Assembly: GCA_002069965.1 (NCBI GenBank)
Contig: MWCI01000024.1
Span: 1-42,571 of the forward strand
Origin: Spirochaetes bacterium ADurb.Bin218
GTDB taxonomy: Bacteria > Spirochaetota > UBA4802 > UBA5550
Length of the DNA: 42,571 nt
Direction of reading: 5' to 3'
Position 1 is the first letter of the stretch. Each line of letters opens with the position of its first letter. The notes beneath the pieces were generated by a model that saw only the letters and a program-made list of their open reading frames with translations, searched no databases and had not been told where the DNA came from. Both the position numbers and the translations under genes were made by a program. Shown piece by piece: positions 2,036 to 11,056 of the stretch.

Positions 2036-2070
2036 TCAATATTTTTAATACAGTATATTAAAAATATTGA
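2036..2070. promoter_or_regulatory. Perfect 15-bp inverted repeat upstream of fdhA
   Basis: Arms TCAATATTTTTAATA (2036-2050) and TATTAAAAATATTGA (2056-2070) are perfect inverse complements around the spacer CAGTA. The dyad sits in the rlmI/fdhA divergent region, just upstream of the sigma54-like site and the structured leader. It could bind a dimeric regulator or fold as an AT-only hairpin. It lacks the G/C-rich stem expected of a terminator. The remaining bases between 1796 and 2035 are AT-rich, with nothing else I recognise. Confidence 0.55.
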
Positions 2071-2076
2071 GGTGAG

Positions 2077-2093
2077 TGGCATGTTTTTTACAT
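2077..2093 (+). promoter_or_regulatory. Possible sigma54 (-24/-12) promoter for fdhA
   Basis: TGGCATG, four bases, then TTACA resembles the sigma54 consensus TGGCACG-N4-TTGCA. The GG is at 2078-2079, but the -12 GC is AC (2090-2091), so the match is imperfect. If used, transcription would start near 2103, a few bases before the first stem of the leader RNA, which is the main reason to take it seriously. An alternative TTGACT at 2022-2027 has no good -10 partner. Confidence 0.35.
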
Positions 2094-2102
2094 ATCTTCA
2101 TA

Positions 2103-2264
2103 TATGATGCAGAGGACTATTCAGGCAGGTCCTGTCTGATGATGTCTGGAGGCATGTCTATGGGGATCTTCTCATGCTGCTTGCCTGCATGAGATGCTGA
2201 GCTTAAAGTCTTCCATAGTTCCTCCCCCTCAGGACTAGCTCTGTTTCACAGAATTATTCTCTGT
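2103..2264 (+). promoter_or_regulatory. Structured leader RNA, candidate Mo/W-cofactor riboswitch
   Basis: A locally more G/C-rich stretch folds into five nested stems: 2109-2114 with 2239-2244, 2129-2134 with 2230-2235, 2148-2152 with 2221-2225, 2158-2163 with 2213-2218, and hairpin 2171-2177 with 2187-2193 (CTCATGC/GCATGAG). Downstream, ACAGA (2248-2252) can pair with TCTGT at 2240-2244 or at 2260-2264, which gives mutually exclusive hairpins. TCCTCC (2220-2225) can also pair with the fdhA ribosome-binding site GGAGGA (2323-2328). The Moco riboswitch family is known upstream of molybdenum enzyme and cofactor genes, and fdhA needs such a cofactor. I cannot confirm the conserved Moco nucleotides by eye, so the family name is a hypothesis; the pairings are seen directly. 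Confidence 0.45.
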
Positions 2265-2333
2265 ATCTTATTTTATGAAGCTATCATGTCTCTCACCTGG
2301 TGATGCAAATATAAAAATTTTAGGAGGATATTC

Positions 2334-6321: not shown

Positions 6322-9036
6322 ATGAATATTGAGTTTATAATAGATGGCAAATTAATAAGAGCTCATAAGGGGCAGAGTATCTTAAAGGCAGCTCTTTTAA
6401 ATGGGATTGATATACCTCACCTTTGTTATCATGAAAAACTTAGTGCAACTGGAGCATGCAGGCTCTGTATTGTTAAGGTAAATGGAATGTATAAAGCCTC
6501 ATGCACAGAGCCAGTAGCTGAAGGGATTGATGTTGTAACTTATGATGAAGAACTCTCTATGATGCGAAAGGAACTACTTGAGATGCTCCTTGCAGAAGGT
6601 GATCATAACTGCCTCTATTGCCACAGTAATGGGAACTGCGAACTCCAAAATTATTGCTATCAATACAATGTTGAACCGCCAGCTAAGGATTTGCCAAAGA
6701 ATATACGTGAAGTAGATCTCACCTCCAGCCAGGGAATTAAAAGGGATGAAAATAAATGTATCCTCTGTGGGAGATGTGTTAAAGCCTGTGCTGAGATTCA
6801 GGTGAATTTTGTATGGGATTTCGCAGGGCGTGGATCTCATGCACACCTTACTTCTGATATGTATGAGAAGATCGGTGATTCATCATGCATTCAGTGCGGC
6901 ACCTGCGTGCAGCTCTGTCCTACAGGGGCATTGTCTTTTCAGACAGTGCTGGGACGGGGGATGAACTGGGAGCTTAAAAAAGAATCCAGTATCTGTATTT
7001 ATTGCGGTGTGGGATGTAAAATTGATTTCTATACAAATAAAGAAGGCAAGCTTGTAAAGGCAATGGGCAATGATGAAGGCCCTAATAAAGGCCATCTCTG
7101 TGTAAAAGGACGTTTTGGTTTTGACTTTGTTCAGAGCAATAAACGCCTCACAACTCCACTGATAAAGAAAAACGGAAAATTTGAAAAAGCTACATGGGAT
7201 GAAGCGCTTGATCTCGTTGCATCTAAATTTGGCGAAATAAAGGAAAAAAGCAGCCCTGACGCGCTTATGGCCTTTGCTTCTGCAAAGTGCACTAACGAAG
7301 AAAATTATCTCATGCAAAAGTTTATGAGATCTGTCATTGGCACAAATAATATAGACCACTGTGCACGGCTTTGACACAGCGCCACTGTAGCCGGTCTGGC
7401 TGCAACACTTGGATCTGGTGCAATGACAAATTCAATAAGGGAAATTCCTCTCAGCGAATCATTCCTCATAATTGGATCAAACACAACAGAAAATCATCCT
7501 GTCATTGGTTCAATGATTAAAAATGAGGTAATCAATAAGGGAAAGAAACTTGTTGTGGTAGATCCAAGGAAAATAGAACTGGCAAGATATGCAGATATAT
7601 TTCTGCAGATAAAAGCAGGCACAAATATTGCTATACTCAATGGCTTTGCCCATGTTCTTATAAAAGAAGATCTTTATGATAAAGAATTTGTTCAAAATAG
7701 ATGTGAAGGCTTTGAAGAAATGGCAAAGGCTCTTGAAAAATATACTCCAGAGTTTGTTGCCAATATATGCGGGATTGATGATCCCTTCAAGATTGTTGAG
7801 GCCGCACGTTTATTCGCTGCAAGTAAGCCCATGGCTTTGTATTATTGCATGGGTATTACTCAGTTTAAGTCTGGCACAAATGGCGTTAAATCTTGTGCGA
7901 ACTTACAGATGCTTCTTGGAAACATTGGAATTTTAGGTGGCGGGGTGAATCCTCTTAGAGGTCAAAATAATGTTCAGGGTGCCTGTGATATGGGTGCTCT
8001 TCCAAATGTTTATACTGGCTATCAGTCTGTGAGCATTGATGATAATAGAGAAAAATTTATCAAGATGTGGGGAAGTGAATTTGAGCTTTCCAAAAATCCA
8101 GGACTTACAGTAGTTGAGTCTCTCAATGGTGTACTAACCGGTGATGTAAAAGCTATTTATATAATGGGAGAGAATCCTGTTATTTCTGATCCAGATCAAA
8201 GTCATGTTATAGAGGCCTTGAAGCAACTTGATTTTCTTGTGGTGCAGGATATAGTAATGACAGAGACAGCTGCTTTGGCTGATGTTGTTTTACCTGCTTG
8301 TGCATTCCTTGAAAAGGAAGGCACTGTTACAAACACTGAGAGGCGTGTGCAGCTTATGAAAAAAATAGTTACTCCTCCTGGTGAAGTTAAGGAAGATTGG
8401 AGGATTATTATGGAAATAGCCAATATCATGGGTGCCAATTGGGATTATAAATCAGCGGAAGATATTTTTGAAGAGATAAGGCAACTTACACCATCGTATG
8501 GAGGCATAACTTATAAAAGGCTTGAGAAAGAGCTTATACAGTGGCCATGTCCAAGAGAAAATCATCCTGGAACTCAGATCCTCCATAAGGATAGATTTTC
8601 CAGAGGCCTTGGACTTTTTTCTGTTGTTGAGTTTACACCTCCAGCTGAGGATATTGATCCACAGTATCCTATGGTTCTTACAACAGGAAGGATTTTGCAA
8701 CATTTCCATACTGGCACTATGACTCGTAATTCAAAGATACTTGATGAAATATGCCATGAGGCCTTTATTGAAATACATCCCAATGATGCAAGCAACTATA
8801 ATATCTCTAATGGAGAAGAGATTTCTATATCCACAAGACGTGGCAGTGTGAGAGTTAAGGCAAAGATAACAGATAGAGTCAAGCCTGGCATTATCTTTAT
8901 GCCCTTTCATTTTGCAGAGGCAGCAGCTAATAAGCTCACACATGATGCCATGGATCCTTACTGCAGTATTCCTGAATTAAAGATCTGTGCATGTAAGATT
9001 GAAAAGGTGAATGCCATAGGAGGTCTTAGTGAATAA
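6322..9036 (+). CDS. NAD-linked formate dehydrogenase alpha subunit, selenoprotein
   Basis: One 904-residue protein whose codon 351 is TGA (7372-7374), read as selenocysteine. The sequence runs NIDHCARL-Sec-HSATVAGLAATL, matching the active site of formate dehydrogenases, and homology continues unbroken on both sides. The N-terminus is NuoG-like: a [2Fe-2S] site (Cys35, 46, 49, 61), a His-Cys cluster region (GDHNCLYCHSNGNC), two ferredoxin clusters (CILCGRCVKAC, CIQCGTCVQLCP), then the CIYCGVGC [4Fe-4S] site and the Mo/W-bis-pterin catalytic domain. There is no signal peptide, so it acts in the cytosol. Its stop overlaps the start of the NuoEF-like partner by 8 bases. Conventional gene calling would split it into two false genes at the TGA. 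Sec insertion needs selA, selB and selC, which are not in this window. Confidence 0.93.
7372..7406 (+). promoter_or_regulatory. Sec TGA codon and bacterial SECIS hairpin
   Basis: After the TGA (7372-7374), GTAGCC (7387-7392) pairs with GGCTGC (7398-7403), with one U-G pair, around a GGTCT loop (7393-7397). The loop sequence and its position, bases 19-23 after the TGA, are the same as in the E. coli fdhF SECIS that binds SelB. This supports selenocysteine rather than termination or a frameshift. Confidence 0.9.
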
Positions 9037-10907: not shown

Positions 10908-10979
10908 TGAGGCATCGCCAAGCGGTAAGGCAACGGACTCTGACTCCGTCATTCCAAGGTTCGAATCCTTGTGCCTCAG
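10908..10979 (+). tRNA. tRNA-Gln (anticodon CTG)
   Basis: A complete 72-nt cloverleaf. The acceptor stem TGAGGCA pairs with TGCCTCA, including the U1-A72 pair typical of tRNA-Gln, and the discriminator is G. The anticodon stem ACGGA/TCCGT encloses CTCTGAC, giving anticodon CTG (codon CAG). The T arm is CAAGG-TTCGAAT-CCTTG. CCA is not encoded. Confidence 0.93.
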
Positions 10980-10983
10980 AATT

Positions 10984-11056
10984 GGGTTGCTAGCTCAGCT
11001 GGTAGAGCAACTGACTCTTAATCAGTGGGTCCCGGGTTCGAGTCCCGGGCAACCCA
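10984..11056 (+). tRNA. tRNA-Lys (anticodon CTT)
   Basis: A complete 73-nt cloverleaf four bases after tRNA-Gln. The acceptor stem GGGTTGC pairs with GCAACCC and the discriminator is A. The anticodon stem ACTGA/TCAGT encloses CTCTTAA, giving anticodon CTT (codon AAG). The T arm is CCGGG-TTCGAGT-CCCGG. CCA is not encoded. The stop codon of the convergent chemoreceptor gene begins only five bases further on. Confidence 0.95.

Follow-up and report, generated by a model that had tools for sequence, protein, structure and literature searches.

In Escherichia coli, control of selAB is exerted through a leader element that resembles a SECIS and is bound by SelB. Autoregulation of SelB in this organism is mentioned in PMC8124441. 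For bacterial SECIS (bSECIS) elements, an upper stem of 4–16 bp and a distance of 16–37 nt between the UGA and the apical loop are given in PMC13188914. Selenium represses the Cys form of formate dehydrogenase in the spirochaete Treponema primitia, an effect on transcript level, and a review of this effect names no sensor (PMC6288185). How bacteria choose at the RNA level between Sec and Cys isozymes is poorly known.

The window (the whole stretch of 42,571 nucleotides analyzed here) belongs to a Spirochaetota metagenome assembly, and its region 2036–2333 is the leader of a formate dehydrogenase gene, fdhA. With bSECIS elements this leader shares a UGA in a potentially translated frame and, at a spacing of 16–37 nt, a small apical loop with G followed by U on a stem of at least four pairs, but the UGA lies in a short leader uORF instead of a selenoprotein coding region, and the sequence is unlike that of formate dehydrogenase (FDH) SECIS elements. 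As in E. coli selAB, a SECIS-like hairpin is located in a 5′ leader and repression would be expected with Sec-tRNA, whereas this leader adds a UGA-ended uORF at decoding distance and would control a Cys isozyme in place of the Sec machinery. T. primitia, with fdhF-Cys and fdhF-Sec, is likewise a spirochaete carrying both paralogs, the Cys gene being needed at low selenium (PMC6288185); by contrast, its probable Cys gene (L121, in genome G216) has a short, AT-rich leader in which the element was not found. As in attenuators of the trp and tnaC type, the fold of the leader would depend on translation of a short frame within it, although the decision would be made by stop-codon recoding rather than by codon starvation or peptide stalling. 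Finally, the Moco/Tuco riboswitch (RF01055) is also found upstream of Mo/W formate dehydrogenase genes, including the sister gene L009, but no covariance-model match was obtained in the window leader or the host genome. We found no description of such a leader arrangement in the open-access literature searched. The coordinates of the features are collected in Table 1.

Table 1. Features of the fdhA leader and neighboring genes, in positions of the window.
Feature	Position	Strand	Support or remark
Inverted repeat of two perfect 15-bp arms around a 5-nt spacer, TCAATATTTTTAATA-CAGTA-TATTAAAAATATTGA, its 3′ end falling on the Shine-Dalgarno (SD) sequence of the uORF	2036–2070	+	candidate operator or AU-rich hairpin
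uORF SD GAGGTGA within TGAGGTGAG	2069–2076	+	sequence
Outer closing helix, 5′ arm; holds uORF SD and AUG	2070–2083	+	pair probability 0.95–1.0
uORF MFFTYLHI, 8 codons, ATG 2081; UGA 2105–2107 as candidate selenocysteine codon	2081–2107	+	sequence
Continuation of the frame with UGA decoded as Sec: 30 more codons to TGA 2198–2200, with TAA 2204–2206 behind	2108–2200	+	
SECIS-like hairpin TCAGGCA-GGTCC-TGTCTGA	2121–2139	+	pair probability 0.80–0.88; bSECIS constraints from PMC13188914
Stem 3, 5′ arm (partner 2221–2225)	2148–2152	+	pair probability 0.77
Stem 4, 5′ arm (partner 2213–2218)	2158–2163	+	pair probability 0.92
Stem 5 hairpin (2171–2177/2187–2193)	2171–2193	+	pair probability 0.97
3′ portion of leader rich in C/U and poor in G (27 C versus 14 G), some of it paired in the fold	2201–2300	+	possible Rho-loading region if freed
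Outer closing helix, 3′ arm, 36–49 nt 5′ of fdhA start	2285–2298	+	pair probability 0.95–1.0
fdhA SD GGAGGA	2323–2328	+	sequence
fdhA, formate dehydrogenase, Cys form, 989 aa	2334–5303	+	active-site Cys codon TGT 2898–2900
Decayed coding-region SECIS behind Cys codon	2898–2937	+	35.2 bits to SECIS model of FDH genes
Second formate dehydrogenase, Sec form	6322–9036	+	TGA 7372–7374, SECIS GCC-GGTCT-GGC

At the position of the fdhA Cys codon, TGA is present in most orthologs and in the paralogs of the host genome (G000). The segment behind this codon scores far below functional FDH SECIS elements, which reach 54–60 bits to the same model, and this decayed SECIS indicates that the Cys form apparently descended from a Sec gene. 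Besides the Sec formate dehydrogenase at 6322–9036, the host genome carries a close Sec paralog (L066), and it encodes SelB (336 bits) and tRNA-Sec (73.8 bits, TCA anticodon). In the tree, fdhA and L009, from genome G008, formed a Cys sister pair (support 100/99) adjoining a Sec gene of G008. L009 was the sole sister Cys gene of fdhA in the genomes searched, which yielded no third member of the clade. A decayed SECIS also follows the Cys codon of L009 (3559–3598), evidence for Sec-to-Cys conversion there too. Contig C35 of G008 contains Cys and Sec formate dehydrogenase paralogs in tandem (L075 and L074), about 1.1 kb apart, together with selB and tRNA-Sec. In the window, the Sec formate dehydrogenase is split into two ORFs by its in-frame TGA at 7372, so that automatic annotation would break the gene; a NuoEF-like gene then follows, and two neighboring tRNA genes are located at 10908–11056, behind the formate dehydrogenase operon.

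An earlier note on this DNA had drawn five nested stems in the leader, all of which are exactly complementary. In a partition function calculation for 2057–2340, the three inner ones (stems 3–5) were supported, but stem 1 (2109–2114/2239–2244) and stem 2 (2129–2134/2230–2235) were rejected, with pair probabilities of 0.00 and 0.04, respectively; the local hairpin at 2121–2139 outcompetes stem 2 for the bases that they share. The predicted fold is closed by an outer helix absent from that note, composed of 2070–2076/2292–2298 and 2078–2083/2285–2290, and a duplex as good was obtained in 3 of 5000 shuffles. The complete domain, 2069–2299 (231 nt), was more stable than dinucleotide shuffles (z −4.65, 0/200), a value that is somewhat flattered because these limits were picked once the outer helix was known; with the untuned limits 2057–2340, z was −2.50. 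The stability of 2090–2340 alone did not exceed that expected by chance (z −0.70), and it is the outer helix that makes the complete domain far stabler than shuffles. The structured, cis-acting leader that the note proposed in front of this Mo/W formate dehydrogenase gene is well supported by the folding calculations.

Two switching elements had been proposed along with it, namely a TCCTCC strand masking the fdhA ribosome-binding site (RBS) and a segment, ACAGA at 2248–2252, with two competing partners. The TCCTCC/GGAGGA pairing had a probability of 0.00, and complementarity to the SD region was matched by 2190 of 5000 shuffles. ACAGA paired with CTCTG at 2240–2244 (about 0.7–0.86), and its rival pairing with TCTGT had a probability of 0.00. 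Both mask and toggle were unsupported, and with them the suggested layout of an aptamer with an expression platform. No terminator-like site that could act as an intrinsic terminator was found in the leader. The leader did not behave as a repeated mobile element, with a single copy in the host genome at E ≤ 0.001; DNA searches of 59 related genomes returned no homologous leader except for the start-codon region, and no match was found in viral contigs. In the genomes searched, no related leader could be aligned for a comparison of compensatory changes.

The SECIS-like hairpin begins 13 nt after the UGA of the uORF, and its loop lies 20 nt after the UGA (21 nt to the MFE loop). It has a GGUCC loop (GUC in the MFE structure), an upper stem of 8 bp, and a folding energy of −14.1 kcal/mol. 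Upper stem (4–16 bp) and spacing (16–37 nt) were within the bSECIS limits of PMC13188914 in both this hairpin and that of L009. A search of both window strands for UGA codons with an RGTYY loop behind them, carried by a stem of 6 bp or more, gave three matches: the leader, the genuine SECIS of the Sec gene, and one other. The loop spacing was +23 in the leader hairpin versus +21 in the genuine SECIS, 2 nt apart. Searched with a covariance model of FDH SECIS elements, this leader and that of L009 gave best matches below 4 bits, versus 54–60 bits for functional elements; this FDH-trained model is dominated by coding constraint and is not part of the published bSECIS definition. The uORF peptide had weak matches only and no credible homolog, the best match, in G001, lying inside an efflux-adaptor-like ORF. 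In the predicted fold of the completed leader, the uORF start sits in the outer helix, and with SD and AUG buried in this way, translation of the uORF would need to begin before 2285 is transcribed.

The same arrangement of elements was present in the leader of L009, where AAAGGAGGTC-ATG is followed by 12 codons, a UGA, a hairpin, and then 41 more open codons; the SD is a good one in this uORF as in that of the window. The L009 loop, AGUU (4 nt; AGTT in DNA), is at +21, like the genuine SECIS, with 18 nt between the UGA and the loop. Its upper stem reaches 9 bp with bulges allowed, only 3 bp of which are uninterrupted, and its folding energy is −14.0 kcal/mol; it is the weaker of the two leader hairpins. 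Under the published bSECIS constraints (PMC13188914), 10000 shuffles of each leader reproduced the combination of uORF, UGA, and hairpin once for the window and 26 times for L009, figures that take no account of the pattern having been formulated on the window by inspection and then sought in L009. By the same constraints, 42 of 49 known FDH SECIS elements were retrieved, and 2 of 68 other FDH leaders matched versus 0.52 expected, no clear excess. A stricter in-house rule gave 0/20000 shuffles for the window leader, 14/20000 for that of L009, and 0/68 control FDH leaders; across 1.37 Mb, its matches were the two leaders, two genuine SECIS elements, and two unrelated sites. The uORF start is predicted to pair with the segment just 5′ of fdhA in the window, and correspondingly in L009, clearly significantly in the window only. 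No shared sequence was detectable between the two leaders, and since the uORF peptide also lacks a credible homolog, shared ancestry of the element is not evident.

Both genomes with the element, G000 and G008, encode SelB and tRNA-Sec, that is, they decode Sec. In G029, where the only gene of this type (L008) is a Cys form, we found no SelB, no tRNA-Sec, and no such uORF. The congeners G025 and G041 (L007), with a Sec enzyme, have both SelB and tRNA-Sec, and G029 apparently underwent a recent loss of selenocysteine use. Two tRNA-Sec matches each were above the cut-off in G009, G024, G025, and G041. Cys FDH genes from outside this clade, in genomes that decode Sec, were not found to carry the element, which would therefore be the solution of one lineage, if real.

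Two features speak for selenium and not for molybdenum: fdhA is a Cys paralog, and the fold of its leader encloses a UGA-ended uORF together with a SECIS-like hairpin. On the sequence evidence, we tentatively propose that the leader senses selenium, with translation as the readout, a hypothesis that we place ahead of each rival. More tentatively still, the sensor may be an attenuator in which the SECIS-equipped UGA of the uORF gauges Sec-tRNA by readthrough and silences the Cys isozyme whenever the Sec isozyme can be made. When selenium is plentiful, SelB and Sec-tRNA would decode the UGA at 2105, and the readthrough ribosome would run on to 2200, opening the leader helices along their 5′ arms. 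Under selenium shortage, the ribosome would halt at the UGA, and the helices downstream could fold. Readthrough would thus lower, and termination raise, expression of the Cys isozyme; repression by selenium is the sensible sign because the cell requires the Cys form only if it is unable to produce the Sec isozyme. One possible output step is that the C/U-rich segment 2201–2300 would be freed for Rho. Loading of Rho is only an idea; C exceeds G in both leaders, a bias equaled by 6% (window leader) and 19% (L009 leader) of ordinary windows. RBS masking was also considered as the output but was not supported, with a probability of 0.00 for the TCCTCC/GGAGGA pairing and a duplex no better than in shuffles. 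Counting against the selenium reading are the unlike leaders, the failure of the FDH SECIS model to recognize them, the buried uORF start, and the lack of an evident expression platform. If it is true, selenocysteine recoding would have a regulatory use, with the UGA in a short frame and not in a selenoprotein, and the succession of SD, short uORF, UGA, and hairpin would serve as a search pattern for other genomes.

Some of these points suit a different explanation, in which the structured leader controls fdhA in a different way, through attenuation of transcription, through mRNA stability, or in response to an unknown ligand, and the UGA uORF and hairpin are coincidental. The unusual stability of the leader (z −4.65), the absence of a fitting Rfam family, and the uORF start buried in the predicted fold are all consistent with it, and SD-bearing short uORFs can arise by chance in long leaders. 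We consider it somewhat unlikely, as the combination of uORF, UGA, and SECIS-like hairpin is improbable in the window leader and in the L009 leader alike while not clearly raised in the 68 others, and the leader has no terminator-like site.

Control at the promoter, by a regulator acting on the palindrome at 2036–2070 with the leader incidental, appears improbable. The 15-bp arms of this inverted repeat are 100% matched and unique in the window, where none is expected, and the palindrome may point to ordinary transcriptional control. By eye, TTGACT at 2022–2027 with TAATAC 18 nt on would set transcription to start near 2058 and place the palindrome over the −10 element; this promoter was missing from the output of the promoter scan. 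The probable T. primitia Cys gene, selenium-responsive (PMC6288185) with a short leader lacking the element, also fits such control, which nevertheless leaves unexplained the stable fold downstream and the recurrence of a UGA uORF in L009. Promoter control and leader control can coexist.

Still less probable is repression of the E. coli selAB type, in which SelB would bind the leader hairpin without decoding of the UGA: the hairpin fits the bSECIS constraints and SelB is encoded, but neither leader would then have any need of its suitably spaced UGA behind a well-placed SD and AUG.

The least probable explanation is a riboswitch, either a divergent Moco/Tuco member or one of a new Mo/W-cofactor class, an assignment offered in the earlier note that suits a Mo/W enzyme gene such as fdhA and the presence of RF01055 before related genes, but that is contradicted by the absence of RF01055 from the leader and the genome and by conserved Moco segments being invisible by eye. 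An Rfam scan of the window at gathering score returned no family in the leader; RF01055, for which membership requires a covariance-model score of at least 36 bits, was absent among matches to E 10 in 1900–2450 and had no match in the entire host genome at E ≤ 1, and on this Rfam evidence a Moco riboswitch in the window leader was rejected. Elsewhere, RF01055 is present upstream of the orthologs L007 (79.5 bits) and L008 (72 bits) and, in the same family, precedes AOR-like genes in G003 and G011. Upstream of L009, a Moco riboswitch (58 bits) is located at L009 positions 2369–2487, about 190 nt 5′ of the UGA uORF, so that selenium and Mo/W may jointly control this gene.
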